From assembly GCF_030269305.1 (NCBI RefSeq), contig NZ_BSTC01000001.1, positions 509,467 through 573,466 on the forward strand: DNA of 64,000 bases, in the 5' to 3' direction. The position numbers and the translations under genes were made by a program. Shown piece after piece: positions 2,453 through 20,219 of this stretch. The notes beneath the pieces were generated by a model. The model saw only the letters and a program-made list of their open reading frames with translations. It was not told the origin of the DNA and ran no database searches. Numbering within the stretch: position 1 is the stretch's first letter; every line of letters begins with the position of its first letter. This DNA comes from Kineosporia sp. NBRC 101731 (lineage in GTDB: Bacteria > Actinomycetota > Actinomycetes > Actinomycetales > Kineosporiaceae).

Positions 2453-3240
2453 CTGCGCTGCTGGAGGGTCTGGACATCCGCGAGGCCTCCCGGGCGCCTC
2501 TGGCCCGGGCCAATCCGGCCGCGAAACTGGCTGTGGCATCGGTGATCTCGATCGGCCTGATCCTCACGGTGGATCCGGTGACGGCAGGGGTGGCCCTGGC
2601 CCTGGAGTTGCTGGCGCTGCCCTTCTGCGGTCTGAGCCCCCGGAAACTGTTCCGCAGCAGCTGGATCATCCTGCTCGGGGCGATCCCGGCCGGACTGCTC
2701 ACGCTGGTGTTCGGGGTGGACGACGGGGCCACCCTGATCGGGCTCGGCCCGGTGACGATCACCGAGGGCTCGCTCAGCTCGGCGATTGCGATCACCCTGC
2801 GGATCCTGGCGATCGGGCTGCCCGGGGTGGTGCTGCTGGCTACCACCGACCCCACCGACCTGGCCGACGCGCTGGCCCAGAACCTGCACCTGCCGCACCG
2901 GTTCGTGCTCTCCGCCCTGGCCGCTCTGCGCCTGGTCGGTCTGCTGGCCCAGGAGTGGCAGACGCTGACGATGGCCCGTCGTGCCCGGGGTCTCGGCCAT
3001 GGTCTGAAACAGGCGCTGGGTCAGGTGTTCGCGCTGCTGGTCATCGCGATCCGGCGGGGTACGGTGCTGGCGACCACGATGGAGGCCCGGGGATTCGGGG
3101 TGGACGCACCCCGCACCTGGGCGCGGCCCAGCCGGTTCACCTGGTTCGACGGGGTGGTGGTGCTGGGTGGTGTGCTGGTGGCGGTGGCTTCCACGGCCGC
3201 GGGGATCGCGGCAGGCACCTGGAACCTGGTGCTCACCTAG
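2449..3240 (+). CDS. ykoC: ECF transporter transmembrane (T) component, YkoC/EcfT family
   Basis: A 263-residue membrane protein that couples the YkoD ATPases to the YkoE binding subunit. It has the EcfT layout: N-terminal membrane segments, a cytoplasmic region with two Ala-Arg-Gly coupling motifs (ARRARGLG, and EARGFG further on) and C-terminal membrane helices. The GTG start overlaps the ykoD stop by 4 bases. The stop at 3238-3240 is only 3 bases from the end of the convergent NuoF-like gene, and I see no terminator hairpin between them. With ykoE and ykoD it completes a riboswitch-controlled vitamin B1 importer. Confidence 0.9.
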   Translation: MTALLEGLDIREASRAPLARANPAAKLAVASVISIGLILTVDPVTAGVALALELLALPFCGLSPRKLFRSSWIILLGAIPAGLLTLVFGVDDGATLIGLGPVTITEGSLSSAIAITLRILAIGLPGVVLLATTDPTDLADALAQNLHLPHRFVLSALAALRLVGLLAQEWQTLTMARRARGLGHGLKQALGQVFALLVIAIRRGTVLATTMEARGFGVDAPRTWARPSRFTWFDGVVVLGGVLVAVASTAAGIAAGTWNLVLT

Positions 3241-3243
3241 GGG

Positions 3244-4500
3244 TTACTCGTAGGTGCAGAACCCGTCCACGTGGTTCCCGATCTCCGGGCTGAAGGTCTC
3301 GAGCATGGAGTTCACCAGCCGGGCCGTGCCGTCCGGGTGCGCGCACGCGCCCCGGCCGGTGACCAGGCCGGTGAGCTGCTCGATCCGCTCCACCAGACTC
3401 GCCGCCTCGCGGTGTGAGCGCACCCGCGGAAGGCGCGTGCAGGCGTCTGCCAGCGCCGGCAGTCCGTTGGTGCACGGGCCGCACCGCTTGGCCCGCTGCC
3501 CGGCGAGATAGTCGACGATCGATGCGGTGTAGCTGAGGGGACAGTCACCGGGCAGCATCGGCAGCAGTACCCCGGCCCCCAGCCTCGCGCCGAAACGGGC
3601 CAGGTCGGCGGGGCTGAGCGTGCAGCTCGTGACCTGCTGCGGCGACAGCCAGGTGCCGTGGTAGCCGCCGACCAGCAGCGGCCGGGCCGGGTCGTACCCG
3701 CAGAACTCGAGCATCTCGGCCAGCGGCACCCCGTGCGGGGCCTCCAGCACCAGACCACCCGGGCCGTCCGCCGAGATCGACAGCAACCGGGTACCGGGGT
3801 CGGCCGAGGTGCCCCAGCGGGCGTATCGCTCGGGCCCGAGGTCACTCACGGCCGCCAGGTGGGCCAGCGTCTCGGCGTTCGAGAGCAGGGTGGGGCGCCC
3901 GCGGAGTCCGGAGTAGGCCGACGGGGTGCGCGAGGTGACCGGCAGGTTGTCGCGGCCGGAGATCATCTCCAGCACGGCCGCCGACTGCCCGCCGACGAAT
4001 CCTCCGCTGGTGGTGTGCATCTCGTACTCGACGGCCTTGCGCCCCCGGTCCCGCTCACCGATCGCGGCGCGGATCGCCGCGACCACGCTCGGCCGTTCAC
4101 CCGGAACCGCGACGTGCACGTGGTGAATGTCGAGCGCATCGGCCAGGAGCTGGGCGCCGTCGAGCACCAGGTGCGGGGCCGACAGCATCAGGCTGCTGTC
4201 TTTCGCACTGGCCGGTTCCCCCTCGGAGCAGTTCACCACCAGCTCGCGCTTCTTGCCCGACTCCACCGCGGCCTGCAGCTTGCGGGCGAACGGGAACTCC
4301 GCCCCGCCGCGCCCGGTCAGGCCGATCTTCCAGCTCATCTCGATCAGTTGCGGCACCGTCGTGCGGGCCGGCTCGTTCCACAGCCGCCGGTGTACCGGCA
4401 GGCTCGCACTGCCGTCCGGGCCCACGCCGCGCAGGAGCAGCGGGCCGTCCAGCAGGGAGACCACGCCGTGGAAACCGGCCTCCACGTCGGTGTGCGTCAT
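3244..4500 (-). CDS. NuoF-like flavin/iron-sulfur protein (51-kDa NADH dehydrogenase subunit family)
   Basis: A 418-residue protein related to NuoF/HoxF, which oxidise NADH with FMN and pass electrons to a 4Fe-4S cluster. The Gly-rich flavin/NAD region GRGGAEFPFARK (63-74) and the NCSEGEPASAKD motif (90-101, like the NuoF NADESEPG-type loop) are present. The C-terminal cluster region has RCGPCTNG (Cys340, Cys343) and a later Cys386, but the first Cys expected from the NuoF CxxCxxC pattern is Ala, so the cluster may be altered or have another ligand. It is the last gene of a four-gene minus-strand operon and overlaps the ferric-reductase-like gene by 4 bases. It is not part of a complex I operon. 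Its electron acceptor is probably the adjacent membrane protein (inference). Confidence 0.75.
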   Translation of the reverse strand: MTHTDVEAGFHGVVSLLDGPLLLRGVGPDGSASLPVHRRLWNEPARTTVPQLIEMSWKIGLTGRGGAEFPFARKLQAAVESGKKRELVVNCSEGEPASAKDSSLMLSAPHLVLDGAQLLADALDIHHVHVAVPGERPSVVAAIRAAIGERDRGRKAVEYEMHTTSGGFVGGQSAAVLEMISGRDNLPVTSRTPSAYSGLRGRPTLLSNAETLAHLAAVSDLGPERYARWGTSADPGTRLLSISADGPGGLVLEAPHGVPLAEMLEFCGYDPARPLLVGGYHGTWLSPQQVTSCTLSPADLARFGARLGAGVLLPMLPGDCPLSYTASIVDYLAGQRAKRCGPCTNGLPALADACTRLPRVRSHREAASLVERIEQLTGLVTGRGACAHPDGTARLVNSMLETFSPEIGNHVDGFCTYE

Positions 4501-5123
4501 CGGGACCGCTCCCGGGCCCGGGCCTGCCGGCGGCTACCGGCCGGCGAATGGCGCTCCAGGCGGCGCTCGGTGCCGAACGTGCCCAGCCGCACCACCACCG
4601 ACCAGACCACCACACCGACGCAGAGCACGCTGACCGCGACCGACCAGGTCTCGCGGCTGTCGGTACCGATACCGAAGCCGTGCACCAGCCCGGCGCCCCA
4701 GCCCAGGTACGAGGTCAGGTGGATGGCCCGCCAGGTGCGCGAACGGAACCGGGTGCGGGAGAGTCCGGTGAGCACGGTGACGATGATGAAGTCGGTGGCC
4801 AGCGTGCCGAGACCCAGCCACAGCGGCTCGTATTCGCCCCGGAACGGGACGAGGACGTCCCACCAGCGGATGTTCACGAACTCGTCGATCACCGCCAGCG
4901 CCGCGTGCGCGATCAGCAGGGCCACCGCCAGCAGCGAGATGTTGCGGTGCAGGTGCTGGGTGACGAACCGCGGCCAGAACCGGGACGACGCCCGCACCGT
5001 GGAAAGTACGCCGAGCGCTACGGAGAGCGTCATCAGGACGAGCAGGATCACGCCCGTGCCCCGGTTCAGGAACCAGGTCAGCCGGTCGTCCTTGAACGCC
5101 TCGGTGAAGAAGTCGAGACTCAT
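4497..5123 (-). CDS. ferric-reductase-like transmembrane protein
   Basis: A 208-residue membrane protein with about five to six helices. Histidines occur in paired helices (HLHRNISLLAVALLIAH, and HLTSYLGW followed by GLVHGFGIG), the pattern expected for bis-histidine b-type haem ligands in ferric-reductase/NOX-like domains. There is no NAD(P)H/FAD domain on this chain, so electrons must come from a partner, plausibly the NuoF-like protein encoded immediately downstream (4-base overlap). The start MSLDFF at 5123 is preferred because it overlaps the apbE stop by 4 bases and removes a low-quality 48-residue extension. It ends in a basic cytoplasmic tail. Confidence 0.78.
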   Translation of the reverse strand: MSLDFFTEAFKDDRLTWFLNRGTGVILLVLMTLSVALGVLSTVRASSRFWPRFVTQHLHRNISLLAVALLIAHAALAVIDEFVNIRWWDVLVPFRGEYEPLWLGLGTLATDFIIVTVLTGLSRTRFRSRTWRAIHLTSYLGWGAGLVHGFGIGTDSRETWSVAVSVLCVGVVVWSVVVRLGTFGTERRLERHSPAGSRRQARARERSR

Positions 5124-14460: not shown

Positions 14461-14946
14461 ATGGATTCCGAGCTTGCCTCCCTCATCGAGGAGATCGAAG
14501 ACCAGGAGCGCCGTCTGCGGCTGCCTGGCTTCGACAATGACGACGCCTGGCAGATCGGCATCATCCTGGTCGAGCTCGCTGCGTCCCGCCGTGCTCCGGT
14601 GACCGTCGACCTGCGCCGCAACGGCCAGCAGCTCTTCCACTACGCCCTGCCCGGCACCAGCGCCGACAACGATGCCTGGATCCGCCGAAAGGCGGCTGTG
14701 GTAGATCGTTTCGGGCTGTCTTCGCTCCTCGTGGGCCGTCAGGCGTTCGCCGACGGCGTCTCTTTCGAAGAACGCTTCCGGCTCGACCCCGACCAGTACG
14801 CGGCGCACGGCGGGTCGTTCCCGGTGCACGTGCACGGTGTGGGAGTGGTCGGCACGGTCACCGTCTCCGGTCTGCCGGAGGTGGAGGACCACCGGATGGT
14901 CGTGGCCGGGCTGGAGCAGTACCTGGACGACCTCAGCAAGAACTGA
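14461..14946 (+). CDS. UPF0303/HbpS-like (haem-degrading domain family) protein
   Basis: A 161-residue single-domain protein resembling UPF0303 (the YBR137W/HbpS-like fold, formerly DUF336-related). Features include the N-terminal helix LIEEIEDQERRLRL, the W-containing strand DAWQIG, the FHYALPGTSADNDAWIRRKAAVV segment and a HVHGVGVVGTVTVSGLP segment. Family members have been tied to haem or oxidative-stress sensing, and some yeast homologues to chaperone complexes, but activity here is unproven. It lies 11 bases after hspR and before a terminator-like hairpin, so it is probably the last gene of the heat-shock operon. An earlier GTG (14455) is possible. Confidence 0.72.
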   Translation: MDSELASLIEEIEDQERRLRLPGFDNDDAWQIGIILVELAASRRAPVTVDLRRNGQQLFHYALPGTSADNDAWIRRKAAVVDRFGLSSLLVGRQAFADGVSFEERFRLDPDQYAAHGGSFPVHVHGVGVVGTVTVSGLPEVEDHRMVVAGLEQYLDDLSKN

Positions 14947-14973
14947 TCTCAGGAGGAACAGGCACGACGGGCG

Positions 14974-15002
14974 CTGACGGCGATTGCGGGGATCGCCGTC
15001 AG
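14974..15002 (+). terminator. hairpin after the dnaK operon
   Basis: An 11-bp perfect stem (CTGACGGCGAT at 14974-14984, ATCGCCGTCAG at 14992-15002) with a 7-base loop lies 27 bases after the last gene of the heat-shock operon. There is no U-tract, as is common for actinobacterial terminators. Confidence 0.6.
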
Positions 15003-15402
15003 GAGCACCAGGAGGGCCCGCCCAGCTTCCTCCGGCGATCACCCCGTTCACCGCGTTCCCGGGGTACGCAGGTCGATGCGGACGCCGACGCGCCCGGTGA
15101 AGGGCTCGGGCTCTGAAGCCTCATCGACGTCCAAAAGTTCTGCCATCAGACCGAATCCAGAGTCGGCAACCAAGTCGGCCGCCCCCGGATCCCCACCGCC
15201 GACTCGAGCGCGAGCGGCCGTGACCGGCTCTGCCGGTCGTGGGTTGCTGAGCAGCGGCAGCGCCGGCTCCGCAGTCGTGTGGGCGCTCACCTGGTGTCCG
15301 GGCGAGCTGGTTGACGGGCCATCAGGCTCACGACAGGTCACTGGGTCCCACTGCGCGGTTACATGGTGCGAATCGCGTGATGGTGACTTTCAGGAGGATC
15401 AG
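15003..15402. other. non-coding stretch with no convincing gene
   Basis: About 400 bases between the heat-shock operon terminator and the DUF192 gene. A 97-codon open frame exists on the minus strand (15048-15341), but it has weak codon bias, no ribosome site and no recognisable family, so I do not call it. The plus-strand frame that runs into the DUF192 gene from 15076 is low-complexity before 15403. Confidence 0.5.
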
Positions 15403-15729
15403 GTGACCGGGTTGCTCGTGGACGGTGTCGAGGTTGCCGAGGTGGAGGTGGCTACGAGCTATGTCCAGCGGTCGCGGGGGCTGCTCGGCCGGGACGGGGT
15501 GGCGACCGGGCTGGTGCTCCGGCCGGGGTCGAGCGTGCACACGATCGGCATGCGTTTTGCGATCGACGTGGTCTATGTGCGGCGCGACGGAACGGTGCTG
15601 GCGGTAGTGACGATGGTTCCGCAGCGGGTCGGGCTTCCCAGGCTGCGCTCCGGCTGGATCCTGGAGACCGAGGCCGGGCGGGCAGCGGGATGGGGCATCG
15701 CACCGGGGCGTCATCTCAGCCTGATGTGA
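15403..15729 (+). CDS. DUF192 family protein
   Basis: A 108-residue protein of the DUF192 family. The hallmark motifs RSRGLLGRDG and SSVHTIGMRFAIDVVYVRRDG are present, followed by the conserved W and the C-terminal GRAAGWGI segment. The GTG at 15403 has AGGAGG at 15392-15397. DUF192 proteins form a small beta-barrel of unknown activity that in actinobacteria often sits near prepilin or secretion genes; no such genes are here. A 12-bp palindrome (GTAGTCGACTAC, 15739-15750) follows 9 bases after the stop and could be part of a terminator or an operator. Confidence 0.85.
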   Translation: MTGLLVDGVEVAEVEVATSYVQRSRGLLGRDGVATGLVLRPGSSVHTIGMRFAIDVVYVRRDGTVLAVVTMVPQRVGLPRLRSGWILETEAGRAAGWGIAPGRHLSLM

Positions 15730-15944
15730 CCACTCAAGGTAGTCGACTACTTTCGGTCGCCTGTTCCAATTCCGGTTTCTGCTAAGCATTTGATAGCTCA
15801 GTGTTATGAACGCTGCGCATCTAGCGTGATCTCATTCACTGAGAGTGCGTCTCGGGTTCAATTGGCCCTAAAGTGGTCCACGTCGTCGTGAGTACACCGT
15901 GTGATCGACTCGCGGCGTCCGGAGGGAAGAAGGGAGATGCCCGA

Positions 15945-16385
15945 GTGTTCAGGGGACAGTTGAGTCCGCGTCTTCGGAGGGGAGAAGCGGATGGCGCTGC
16001 ACTCGGGGAGATCCCGCCCGGGGTCGAGGCGGTGCGCGGTTGGTGGCAGGACCTGCTGAGTGGGACGAGGTCCCGCGCGGAGGTCTCGGCCCTGGCCGAG
16101 GGCTGGGCCCGGGGCTCGCGCCTGGTGGAGTGTCCTTTCGCGCGCCGGGGGCTGTGGCACCTCTACCGGGCGGGGCTGCTCGACGCCGAGACCGGGGCGC
16201 CGGTCCGGTCCCGGTCGGAACTCCTTGCGGCGTATGAGACCTGGTGTGCCGACCAGGTTCTGGCCGCGCACGATCCGCAGGCCTGGCGCCTGGTGGCGCG
16301 GGACCGGACGCTCGCGGTCCTCGAGGCCTCCCGGTCGGCCGGTCGTCCGCTGCGGCGACGCCCATCCCTTTCACGGATGCACTGA
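15945..16385 (+). CDS. small helical protein of unknown function
   Basis: A 146-residue hydrophilic protein with good codon bias that I cannot assign firmly. The pattern WWQDLLSGTRSRAEVSALAE followed by a W-containing helix and YETWCADQ resembles a group of small actinobacterial proteins in which a surface-charged helical domain follows a short beta strand, but this is memory and not a match. The GTG at 15945 is chosen because GGGAG (15932-15936) lies 8 bases upstream; the alternative GTG at 15873 adds a low-quality N-terminus. It stands alone between DUF192 and the exported A-B-A-B operon. Confidence 0.55.
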   Translation: MFRGQLSPRLRRGEADGAALGEIPPGVEAVRGWWQDLLSGTRSRAEVSALAEGWARGSRLVECPFARRGLWHLYRAGLLDAETGAPVRSRSELLAAYETWCADQVLAAHDPQAWRLVARDRTLAVLEASRSAGRPLRRRPSLSRMH

Positions 16386-16556: not shown

Positions 16557-17687
16557 GTGCGCCGTGCCTCGATCGGTGTCGTCGTTCTGCTGACCGTCGC
16601 CGCGGTCGCGGGGTCGGCGCAGGCCTCGGCCACCCCGACGGCCACCCCGACGGCCACCCCGACGACCACCCCGACCGCGATGCCGCAGGACCAGCTGGCG
16701 GCGCAGAAGGTGCCGGTGCTCGGGTCCACCACCCTGCGCCAGGAGATGGACGGCACCAAGACGAAGGCGACGCTGCTGGTGAACGGGGTTCGCCGGATTC
16801 CCGGGGCAACGGTGCTCTACTACTCGGCCGGTCTGTCCGAAGGTGCGCGCCCGGAGGACTGGTACAAGTTCACCTCCGGTGCGACCGACCGGAACATCGC
16901 TATCAGCAGCATCGGGAACGTGCGCCTGGTGGACTTCTCCGGCGAGAGGATCTACACGCCGCTCCACGAGGACGACGGCGGCACCGACGGCACGGCGATG
17001 ACCTCGCCCTACCGTTCCTGGCCGAATTTCGAGCCGGGAGGCACGTTCTACACGTTCTACGCGGTGATGCCGGAGCTGCCCGAAGACCTCGACTCGGTGG
17101 ACGTGCTGGTCGGGCACGGCGACGTCGTGCAGAACGTGCCGATCAGTGACGGCGTGATGGAACCGGCCTCCCTCCAGGTGGAACCGATCCGGATGGGCGA
17201 GGCCTGGCCGCAGATCGACCAGGCGGCGGCCGCTTCCTCGCTGCGCCCGCAGGACTCGGTGCGCCCGCTGACCACGACCGTCGCGAATGCCGACGGCACG
17301 GTGACGCAGGAGAGCACCGACGAGACGACCACGGTCAACCTCTCGTCGGACGTGTTGTTCGGGGTCGACTCCGCGACGCTCGACCCGTCCGCCGACCAGG
17401 TGCTGCAGAAGGCCGCCGACGCGGTGAACTCCTCGGCCGGGAGCGGCGAGATCGAGATCGTCGGCCACACCGACAGTTCCGGCAGCGATGAGCACAACCT
17501 GAAGCTGTCCCGGCGCCGCGCCCGGGCCGTGGCCCGGGCCTTGAAGCCGCTGATCACCGTGCCCGGGGTCACCTACCGGATCTCCGGCCGGGGAGAGCAG
17601 GACCCGGTCAGCGGCAACGACACCGAGGCGGGCAGGAAGAAGAACCGCCGGGTCGGCGTGGTCTTCGGGCAGGAGGGGGCGAAGTGA
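16557..17687 (+). CDS. exported protein A1 with C-terminal OmpA domain
   Basis: A 376-residue protein: signal peptide (about 1-25), a Thr/Pro repeat (ATPT repeated), a domain of about 220 residues shared with the protein at 18304, and a C-terminal OmpA-like peptidoglycan-binding domain (about 265-375) with SSDVLFGVDSATLDPSA, EIVGHTDSSGSDEHN and LSRRRARAVA. OmpA domains bind diaminopimelate in the cell wall. The shared domain has the segments KVPVLGSTTL, NGVRRIPGA and GGTFYTFYAVMPELPED. The GTG at 16557 starts a clean signal peptide. It overlaps the next gene by 4 bases and is first in a four-gene operon. Function unknown; a wall-anchored role is inferred. Confidence 0.78.
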   Translation: MRRASIGVVVLLTVAAVAGSAQASATPTATPTATPTTTPTAMPQDQLAAQKVPVLGSTTLRQEMDGTKTKATLLVNGVRRIPGATVLYYSAGLSEGARPEDWYKFTSGATDRNIAISSIGNVRLVDFSGERIYTPLHEDDGGTDGTAMTSPYRSWPNFEPGGTFYTFYAVMPELPEDLDSVDVLVGHGDVVQNVPISDGVMEPASLQVEPIRMGEAWPQIDQAAAASSLRPQDSVRPLTTTVANADGTVTQESTDETTTVNLSSDVLFGVDSATLDPSADQVLQKAADAVNSSAGSGEIEIVGHTDSSGSDEHNLKLSRRRARAVARALKPLITVPGVTYRISGRGEQDPVSGNDTEAGRKKNRRVGVVFGQEGAK

Positions 17688-18307
17688 GGCGATCGGCGAT
17701 CGTGGCGGTGCTGGGGCTGCTCCTGGTGGCCGGGGCCGGTGGGCTCTACCTGTCCGGCCGGGACGAGCCGGCCGCCGCTGCCCCCGAGGCGGCACCGGTG
17801 GCCACGACGGGTGAGCTGACCGTGGAGGACGCCACCCGGACGTTCCTGGGAGACAGCGCGCCCGTCGGTCCGGCGGTCGCCTCCGAGAAAGGCGTGATCT
17901 ACGCCTACGACCAGGACACCTCCACGAGCTACGACGCGCCCGGAACCCTCGACATCCTGGCCGTGGACGTCAGCGAATCGTCGACCCACGTGAGGTTCTC
18001 GATGAGCGCTGAGTCGGAACTGCGACTTCGGCTCGCCGGGTACATCGAGACCACGCTGTCGGGTTTCCACACCGCCACGCTGGTGGCGGAACAGGCCGAC
18101 CTGTCGATGACCGGGGCCCGGTGGATCGGCGCGAACGAGCTGTCGGCCGACTGCACCTGCGGCCGCCGGCCGGAGGTCGTCGACGCCGACGGGGTCGAGG
18201 TCAGCCTGCTGTTCCCGGCCCTGCCCGCGTCCGTCACCGAGGTCCAGCTCAAGGTGCCGGGTTTCGTCCCGCTCACCGCCCCCGTCAACCGAGTAGGTGC
18301 GGAATGA
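17684..18307 (+). CDS. exported protein B1, unknown function
   Basis: A 207-residue protein with an N-terminal membrane/signal segment (about 3-24) and an extracytoplasmic domain. It is a paralogue of the protein at 18984: both have a SExGVIYAY segment, ESSTHVRFS, a CTCGR motif with two close cysteines, and a C-terminal block LLFPALPASVTEVQLKVPGF. I do not recognise the family. The GTG start overlaps the A1 stop and the stop overlaps the A2 start (ATGA), so A1, B1, A2 and B2 are translated as one coupled unit. The constant A-B pairing suggests that A and B proteins interact (inference). Confidence 0.7.
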   Translation: MRRSAIVAVLGLLLVAGAGGLYLSGRDEPAAAAPEAAPVATTGELTVEDATRTFLGDSAPVGPAVASEKGVIYAYDQDTSTSYDAPGTLDILAVDVSESSTHVRFSMSAESELRLRLAGYIETTLSGFHTATLVAEQADLSMTGARWIGANELSADCTCGRRPEVVDADGVEVSLLFPALPASVTEVQLKVPGFVPLTAPVNRVGAE

Positions 18308-18987
18308 GACACATCATCGCGCTGGCCCTGGCCGGGACCCTGACCTCGGCCACCACCGGCGGCGTCTCGGTCGCGGAGCTGGGTGACCAGAAGGTGCCGG
18401 TCCTGGGTTCCACCACACTGGCCCAGGACATGGAGTCCGAGGGGGTCAAGGCGACGGTGCTGGTGAACGGGGTGCGCCGGATCGACGGGGCGACGATCGT
18501 CTACTACTCGGCCGGGCTGCCGAAGGGCGCGCCGGCGCAGAGCTGGTCCGCCTTCAACGCCTTCGCGTCGGACCGCGTCTCGGCGGCCTCGGGTGGTGTC
18601 GGCAACGTGCGGCTGATCGATTTCCCGCACCAGAAGATCTACCTGCCACTGGTGAAGATGTCGCAGTACGGCACCGAGCAGGCCATGGTGTCGCCCTCGG
18701 CGGCCTGGCCCTCCGACGAGTCCGGGGGCACCTTCTACACGTTCTACGCGGTGATGCCGGAGCTGCCCGACGACGTCGGCACGGTCGATGTGATGGTGGG
18801 GCACGGCGACATCGTGCACGACGTGAAGGTCGACGAGGGTGTGATGGAACCGGCCTCCTTGCAAGAGAAACCGATCCGGATGGGCCAGGTCTGGCCGTTG
18901 ATCGACCAGGTCGCCGCGGCGGGTTCGGTGGCGCCGGAAGACTCGGTCCGGCCCCTGATCGGCAGATCGACGGAGGAGGGGCAGTGA
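18304..18987 (+). CDS. exported protein A2, paralogue of A1 without the OmpA domain
   Basis: A 227-residue protein with a short signal peptide (about 1-24). The mature part aligns with the middle domain of A1 through KVPVLGSTTL, KATVLVNGVRRI, YYSAGL, GNVRLIDF, GGTFYTFYAVMPELPDD, VMVGHGDIVHDV and GVMEPASLQEKPIRMG, then stops where A1 continues into its OmpA domain. It therefore lacks the wall anchor. It overlaps B1 and B2 by 4 bases at each end. The two copies have diverged considerably in connecting loops, so the duplication is not recent. Confidence 0.7.
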   Translation: MRHIIALALAGTLTSATTGGVSVAELGDQKVPVLGSTTLAQDMESEGVKATVLVNGVRRIDGATIVYYSAGLPKGAPAQSWSAFNAFASDRVSAASGGVGNVRLIDFPHQKIYLPLVKMSQYGTEQAMVSPSAAWPSDESGGTFYTFYAVMPELPDDVGTVDVMVGHGDIVHDVKVDEGVMEPASLQEKPIRMGQVWPLIDQVAAAGSVAPEDSVRPLIGRSTEEGQ

Positions 18988-19586
18988 TCAGCAGGGACAG
19001 ACGCCGCGCCGGGCTGGTGCTCCTGGCGGGCCTGGTGGCGGTGGCCGTGGCGGCGGTGATCTTCGTGCAGGGTGGTGGCCTGACGAAGTGGCGTACCGGG
19101 GGCGAGGAGCTGTCGGTGCGCGATGCCACTGCGAAGTATCTCGATCAGGCGCCGCAGCGGGCGCCGGCCCTGGCCTCGGAGCAGGGCGTGATCTATGCGT
19201 ACTCGCCGGACGACTACCAGAGTTACGAGGCGACCGGCACTCTCGAGGTGCAGGCCGTGGACGCCGGGGAATCGTCGACACATGTGCGGTTCTCACTGAG
19301 CGCGTCGTCGGAGCAGCAGCTGAGTTCGGGCCGGTACACCGACAGCAGCGGCGCGGGATTCCGTACGGCCACTCTCACGGCGGCCGGGCAGACCGTGACG
19401 GGCGCCGAGTGGACGGGCGCCGACGGGGGCCGGGCGGACTGCACGTGTGGCCGGGAACCGAAGACCGTGGGGCCCGCCGGGATCGACATCAGTCTGCTGT
19501 TCCCGGCCCTTCCCGGGTCGGTGACCGAGGTTCAGCTCACCGTGCCGGGTTTCGTTCCGCTCACGGTTCCCGTGTCCGGGCGATGA
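18984..19586 (+). CDS. exported protein B2, paralogue of B1
   Basis: A 200-residue protein with one N-terminal hydrophobic segment (about 9-29) and an extracytoplasmic domain closely following B1: SEQGVIYAYSPDD, ESSTHVRFSLSA, GFRTATLT, ADCTCGREP and SLLFPALPGSVTEVQLTVPGF. The CTCG cysteines are conserved in both copies, so they may form a disulfide or bind metal. It is the last gene of the A-B-A-B operon and ends inside a long hairpin. Function unknown. Confidence 0.7.
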   Translation: MISRDRRRAGLVLLAGLVAVAVAAVIFVQGGGLTKWRTGGEELSVRDATAKYLDQAPQRAPALASEQGVIYAYSPDDYQSYEATGTLEVQAVDAGESSTHVRFSLSASSEQQLSSGRYTDSSGAGFRTATLTAAGQTVTGAEWTGADGGRADCTCGREPKTVGPAGIDISLLFPALPGSVTEVQLTVPGFVPLTVPVSGR

Positions 19587-19616: not shown

Positions 19617-20219
19617 TTACCGGGACTGCAGGGCGTCCAGCGCCACGGCCATGGCGGCGGCCAGACGGCCGTCCAGACGGGCGCCCGGCACCTCGACCTC
19701 GTAGCGGTCACGCAGTGAGCGCTTGCGCTGCGAGCTCAGGAGCACCGTGCCGTCCGGGTCGGTGAAGTCGAAGTGGAAGACGAACGGCGACGGCAGATCG
19801 CTGAGGACGGGCAGGAACTCCCAGACCCGGCGGGCGATCGCCACGTTCTTGTTGCGCTCGGTGCCGAACAGTTCCACCGGGCTGTTGGCGAAGCCCATGT
19901 GCCACGAGCTGCGCAGGAGTGACTTGCCGAAGTCCTTACGGAACCAGCCGATGGTCTGGCCGGTGGCGTCCTGGACGTCGTAGGTGGCGCCGAGGTCGAG
20001 ACGCTGACGGGCCTTGAAGCTGAACACCGGCTCCGTGCGGTTCTCGTCCGCGTAGAAGGTGACCTCCTCCTTGAACGCCAGGCGCTTCTGCTGGGCGAAG
20101 GCCAGCAGGTCACCGGTACTGCCGTCGGGCCGCAGCTCGCGGATCTCGTAACGGTTGACCATCAGGGTGATCTTCTGGGTCACCGCGAAACGCTCGATGC
20201 TCCTCAGGTCGGAGACCAT
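19617..20219 (-). CDS. LURP-one-related (tubby-like) family protein
   Basis: A 200-residue cytosolic protein of the LURP-one-related/scramblase-like beta-barrel family. Typical features are YEIRE followed by FAQQKRLAFKEEVTFYADE, VFSFKARQRLDLGATYDV, and GWFRKDFGKSLLRSSW. Members share a 12-stranded barrel around a hydrophobic helix; the bacterial role is not established. An ATG at 20219 with GAGAAG 9 bases upstream is used; an internal ATG at 20162 (MVNRYEIRE) would give the minimal domain. It is monocistronic and convergent with the A-B-A-B operon. Confidence 0.78.
   Translation of the reverse strand: MVSDLRSIERFAVTQKITLMVNRYEIRELRPDGSTGDLLAFAQQKRLAFKEEVTFYADENRTEPVFSFKARQRLDLGATYDVQDATGQTIGWFRKDFGKSLLRSSWHMGFANSPVELFGTERNKNVAIARRVWEFLPVLSDLPSPFVFHFDFTDPDGTVLLSSQRKRSLRDRYEVEVPGARLDGRLAAAMAVALDALQSR

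Follow-up and report, generated by a model that had tools for sequence, protein, structure and literature searches.

The gene array A1-B1-A2-B2 at positions 16557–19586 (+) of the window, the 64,000-nucleotide stretch of the Kineosporia sp. NBRC 101731 genome analyzed here, probably encodes the membrane-wall anchor pair of actinobacterial Tad pili, left in this genome as an intact orphan module after deletion of the pilus locus. Four findings underlie this reading: A and B share a homologous domain, they are constantly paired, the pair is linked to Tad genes in relatives, and the corresponding Tad locus is deleted in the window.

Composition of the four-gene array

All four ORFs of the array are open, and every junction is a 4-base overlap of the GTGA/ATGA type, as the initial annotation, which had described two alternating pairs of overlapping genes, correctly stated. 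A1 (16557–17687, +; 376 aa) comprises a Sec-type signal peptide, a Thr/Pro-rich linker, an A beta-sandwich domain (16707–17270, +; delimited by alignment and by a profile match of 9.8e-68, A1 itself being a member of the profile), and a C-terminal OmpA peptidoglycan-binding domain (17355–17648, +). A2 (18304–18987, +; 227 aa) consists of a signal peptide and an A-domain only, without OmpA. B1 (17684–18307, +; 207 aa) and B2 (18984–19586, +; 200 aa) each begin with a membrane segment, which is followed by a B beta-sandwich domain. The pairs are indeed paralogous, the N-domains of A1 and A2 being 58% identical and B1 and B2 52–57% identical. This locus is the sole occurrence of A in the 8.26-Mb genome.

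The CTCG motif and FPALP block that had been noticed in both B proteins are present in each, as DCTCG and FPALP. In its wider form the former motif reads CxC, which 20 of 25 B proteins contain; judging by sequence and alignment, its Cys-Thr-Cys codons lie at 18152–18160 (+) in B1 and at 19440–19448 (+) in B2. CxC also occurs in some A proteins from other bacterial families (genomes G016, G178, and G266) and is absent from Kineosporia A proteins. A vicinal disulfide or a metal site are candidate roles for it.

Among the four proteins, PF00691 matches A1 only (residues 267–364, E 1e-18, 67.9 bits against a cut-off of 27.2), so the assignment of an OmpA domain to just one A copy stands. The domain carries the peptidoglycan-contact motif NxxLSxxRAxxV as NLKLSRRRARAV, a motif found in 21 of 25 A copies, and its fold matches OmpA-C, MotB, and TagL (Z 13–18; 16–17.5 for MotB and TagL). 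Motif and fold together make it a putative peptidoglycan binder. Two other matches were discarded: Peptidase C80 on A1 (E 0.095) is below cut-off and overlaps OmpA, and LPXTG anchoring of B1 was rejected, the Gram_pos_anchor match (E 0.26) being below cut-off and corresponding to the N-terminal hydrophobic stretch.

The N-terminal membrane segments of B1 and B2 look uncleaved. Most other B proteins have a lipobox instead (15 of 25), and most Kineosporia copies have a transmembrane segment; these membrane and signal calls come from reading the sequences by eye and from the lipobox pattern, with no dedicated predictor behind them. Given the membrane segments of B1 and B2 and the lipobox in most other copies, B appears to be membrane-anchored rather than simply exported. 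The earlier description of all four proteins as exported needs correction for B. The proposed division into one anchored and one free complex is not supported, since B2, too, has a membrane anchor.

Searches of Pfam and NCBIfam gave no match to the A N-domain or to B, in line with the original impression that these proteins fall outside described families. The two are, however, related to each other. A profile-profile comparison of 13 A-domains with 13 B proteins gave E 5.9e-6, and more diverse sets (20 and 21 members) gave E 4.8e-12 with a probability of 97.6%. Individual HMMs cross-match as well: the A profile finds the B protein of G016 at 3.5e-5, and the B profile finds A2 of the window at 3.4e-5. 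AlphaFold2 models of B1 (mean pLDDT 76) and A1 (84) are beta-sandwiches with the main strands in similar order; that the A-domain folds like B is judged from the profiles and this strand order, the fold search with A1 having been filled by OmpA matches. By these comparisons, B and the N-terminal part of A are homologs with a beta-sandwich fold, and the array is therefore one domain used four times. The initial annotation was right in seeing a true, unnamed partner pair and missed both this homology and the pilus context described below.

Constant pairing and linkage to Tad loci

B is the next gene directly 3′ of A in all 25 A copies, which come from 17 genomes; the A-then-B order is thus seen in 16 genomes besides the window genome. 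The identical 4-base overlap joins the two genes at 23 of the 25 junctions, one pair lies 9 bases apart, and one (contig C6 of G266) has a B gene with an unsettled start. None of these A copies occurs independently of B, as had been anticipated for obligate partners. Distances in the A-domain and B-domain trees are correlated with r 0.93 over 24 pairs, the highest value among 2000 permutations being 0.34; for the ten Kineosporia copies alone, r is 0.85, a value matched by none of 5000 permutations. Since the distances mirror each other, A and B duplicate as a unit, as the alternating order in the window had suggested; the two proteins may well pair physically, too.

The A form without OmpA is likewise recurrent. 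One Kineosporia clade of such proteins includes A2 of the window and its orthologs in G004 and K. babensis, and the form arose separately in G266, a member of another family, where an A′-B′-A-B array again contains one A without OmpA. For these reasons, the form without the domain is not an accident of the window genome.

Beta-sandwich domains are common in adhesins, and multiple divergent copies occur, so that A and B might be taken for surface adhesins or filament-associated proteins for surface contact rather than anchors. In our opinion this is quite improbable, as the peptidoglycan motif of most A proteins (21/25) and the attachment of B to the membrane indicate a location at the cell wall rather than on the filament.

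Anchoring is the reading favored by the genomic context. In 14 of 18 loci, A-B lies within or beside Tad/Flp genes. The 14, four of them from Cellulomonas and four from Kineosporia, include those of G016, G001, G003, G038, G060, G178, G266 (contig C11), the Cellulomonas genomes, G004, K. babensis, and G007, the last being counted on the strength of Flp and TadG-like genes only because its contig ends there. The gene set at completely read loci consists of CpaB, TadZ, TadE, TadA, TadB, TadC, a histidine kinase, a response regulator, the Flp pilin, and a TadG-like protein. In G004 and K. babensis, the genes dnaK-grpE-dnaJ-hspR and an HbpS-like gene are followed by the full Tad set, a large pilin-like gene, a DUF192 gene, and the A-B pairs, after which come a homolog of window 19617–20219, LmeA, and clpB. 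The full Tad locus of these two species thus lies where the array lies in the window, flanked by dnaK-hspR and clpB. The first proposal, that the array is an independent and undescribed cell-surface system, is not supported: in most relatives, the pair belongs to a Tad/Flp pilus locus, and this synteny rules out a stand-alone surface system as its origin.

The pair is not a universal pilus part, since a profile search found A in only 16 of 347 genomes of the order. A contig scan with one conserved peptide returned six loci and understates the distribution, for which the profile searches, covering 347 and 396 genomes, give a better estimate. The literature on the Flp pili of M. luteus and M. 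tuberculosis names no OmpA protein, and the available papers, searched for an OmpA gene in Tad loci of actinobacteria or of Streptomyces, described none, which is not proof of absence.

Several further features of these loci were observed. Most Tad loci encode one or two large proteins of 420–490 aa (L030 8319–9779, L027 9290–10693, L049 14844–16259, L032 2115–3380, and others), most of which have a Flp-pilin-like N-terminus and an unnamed C-terminal domain and are possible pilus-tip proteins or minor pilins; one large pilin-like protein compared with Pfam had no match. The Tad locus of G003 encodes a small protein that by eye resembles Barstar (L030 7709–8191). The gene directly after A-B in G038 (L028 6393–8141) appears by eye to have OmpA between an A-like N-part and a B-like C-part, of which the profile confirms OmpA only. 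K. rhizophila has, downstream of hspR, a tandem arrangement of two Tad loci that differ in type (L091 and L046).

Beyond the order, weak profile matches led to a genus that appears to be Streptomyces-like, in which the matching proteins are lipoproteins some 200 aa long. Seven loci were read in this genus. Six have TadA-B-C and Flp and end with a B-like lipoprotein followed by a protein that consists of OmpA only; the remaining one (G688, contig C15) has no Tad genes nearby. In G461, from another class, a B-like and an OmpA gene form a two-gene pair, with no Tad genes in the stretch read. These arrangements suggest that the ancestral pair consisted of a B-domain lipoprotein and an OmpA protein, and that A was formed when a second copy of the domain was placed before OmpA. 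In G710, a single long frame (L117 8783–11488) has weak A-like domains, one of them with CLCS, and the stretch that contains it has an OmpA match at its 3′ end; this frame may be a fusion of both domain kinds.

Loss of the pilus locus and retention of A-B-A-B

The borders in the window are those of the G004 and K. babensis Tad locus. Between them, 14946–15394 holds only a 41-codon pilin-like remnant (15054–15176, −), which matches the large Flp-pilin-like exported protein of relatives' Tad loci with E values of 9e-07 and 6e-07 and is also found in G002. It is followed by the DUF192 gene (15394–15729, +; PF02643, 4.6e-14), which by synteny accompanies the Tad locus in relatives, and by a small gene (15873–16385, +) that has no Pfam match and whose homologs adjoin A-B in G004 and K. 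babensis. The sister species G002 has the same borders, remnant, and junction, and of its A-B-A-B only the 3′ end of B2 is left. Compared with its relatives, then, the window has lost the Tad locus by a deletion that left the pilin-like remnant, the DUF192 gene, the small gene, and A-B-A-B.

The small gene has a homolog in K. rhizophila that sits after a pilin-like gene with an unnamed C-terminus. On L033 of that species, one gene (3205–4518) joins a pilin-like N-terminus to a C-terminus of another kind, and the homolog follows (2799–3296), with no Pfam match. Such a pair could be a pilus-borne antibacterial effector and its immunity gene; if so, window 15873–16385 would be an orphan immunity gene.

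The cognate Tad machinery is absent from the window genome as a whole. Its best TadA (353 bits, 50% identity) lies on another contig without A-B, and the best TadAs of G108 and G230 score 315 and 235 bits, whereas those of A-B loci exceed 600. A check of G108 and G230 for a hidden cognate TadA found none close. Other Tad-type loci of the window genome, which are of distant types (contigs C15, C2, C17, and C8), gave no match to A, B, or OmpA over the stretches that were read. The presence of A-B without a close TadA in these three genomes implies that the pair may work without that pilus.

In our judgment, it is improbable that the array is a relic in decay that no longer has a function. The Tad machinery is gone and a neighboring gene is a remnant; A-B has been almost completely lost in G002; and the four proteins diverge fast, with 61–71% identity to those of G004 as against 79–91% for two flanking genes. 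Against decay of this kind speak the four intact ORFs, which retain their 4-base overlaps and conserved motifs, and a neutral simulation. Divergence at 4-fold sites between the window and G002 is 0.11–0.26, or roughly 0.055–0.13 per lineage, and in this simulation, which presupposes a single deletion common to both species, uses a simple substitution model, and does not count frameshifts, none of the four ORFs acquired a new stop in 2.2% of runs at 0.05 changes per site and in 0.25% at 0.08. The result favors selection after pilus loss if the deletion is indeed common to both species. The intact frames therefore suggest that the array has been kept for a retained or new role.

The survival of the frames after a deletion common to the sister species also speaks for a general envelope module, a membrane-to-wall tether or stress factor that only travels with Tad and whose main job in the window is pilus-free. 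The orphan pairs of the window genome, G108, and G230, the second pair of G266, situated away from its Tad locus, and the B-like and OmpA pair of G461 also agree with such a module. We nevertheless consider it rather unlikely: most A-B loci are Tad-linked (14/18), in the Streptomyces-like loci the cognate pair terminates the pilus locus, and in G002 the loss of Tad was followed by that of almost all of A-B.

A candidate anchor for monoderm Tad pili

We propose that A and B descend from a single extracytoplasmic beta-sandwich domain and that the pair would act where membrane and wall meet in actinobacterial Tad (type IVc) pili. In the cytoplasmic membrane, B would be retained through a lipid in most relatives and through a transmembrane segment in most Kineosporia copies, while A would be secreted and then fixed on peptidoglycan via its OmpA domain. 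The two would probably bind through their homologous domains, and the resulting bridge between membrane and wall may anchor or align the pilus machine. A2-B2 would form a second complex, tethered to the membrane without wall contact. In the window genome, with the cognate machinery deleted, the four genes would stay as an intact orphan module.

The closest functional parallel is CpaD, a lipoprotein required for Caulobacter Tad biogenesis and predicted to bind peptidoglycan by an OmpA-like fold (PMC13170226). Like A-B, this outer-membrane lipoprotein is encoded in a Tad locus, belongs to the envelope, and has been proposed to attach the machine to peptidoglycan (PMC13170226). Unlike A-B, it belongs to a diderm and partners a secretin, and no secretin was seen in A-B loci; moreover, A-B divide the OmpA domain and the membrane-held domain between two proteins. 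The CpaD family model is not among the Pfam matches of A or B up to E 1.

A second parallel is offered by the archaellar stator ArlF/ArlG (FlaF/FlaG), a membrane-anchored beta-sandwich pair located next to the motor of a type IV filament. Descent of Tad from archaeal type IV pili has been proposed (PMC6668835). ArlF and ArlG derive from a filament protein (PMC8667602); the N-termini of A and B, by eye, are instead a Sec-type leader (A) and a lipobox or plain membrane segment (B). The solved structures most similar to the B model are weak matches, all below the trust level of Z 8, under which chance beta-sandwich matches fall: YcdA (6.8) and YjhA (6.4), both DUF4352-type lipoproteins, FlaF (6.2), FlaG (5.6), and MPT63 (5.5). 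The DUF4352-type lipoproteins and MPT63 (YcdA, YjhA, 3qfg) are the best of these (Z 5.3–6.8, Foldseek E 0.012), yet neither the A-domain nor B has a Pfam match to DUF4352- or MPT63-like profiles or any sequence match to these proteins. The comparison with ArlF/ArlG is an analogy of role within a related filament family, not a family assignment; A-B would resemble CpaD or ArlF/ArlG in role and probably belongs to neither family.

Other machines are anchored by OmpA-C domains, namely those of MotB/MotS, T6SS TagL, and YfiB, with which the C-domain of A1 shares its fold (Z 15–18) and NxxLSxxRAxxV. Their N-terminal partner domains are unrelated to that of A, and A2 differs from them in having no OmpA domain.

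A review of monoderm pili treats their anchoring in thick peptidoglycan as an open question (PMC6916266). It is possible, although doubtful in this full form, that A-B is a stator-like membrane-to-wall anchor that arose by domain duplication, represents the missing wall anchor of monoderm Tad pili, was kept under selection in this lineage once the pilus had been lost, and has been repurposed as a free-standing envelope tether. The A and B genes are candidates for holding and guiding Tad pili through the thick monoderm wall, and they add a constant partner pair without a family name in which a split into wall-anchored and unanchored forms recurs. The related species with and without the pilus constitute a natural experiment for such an anchor.
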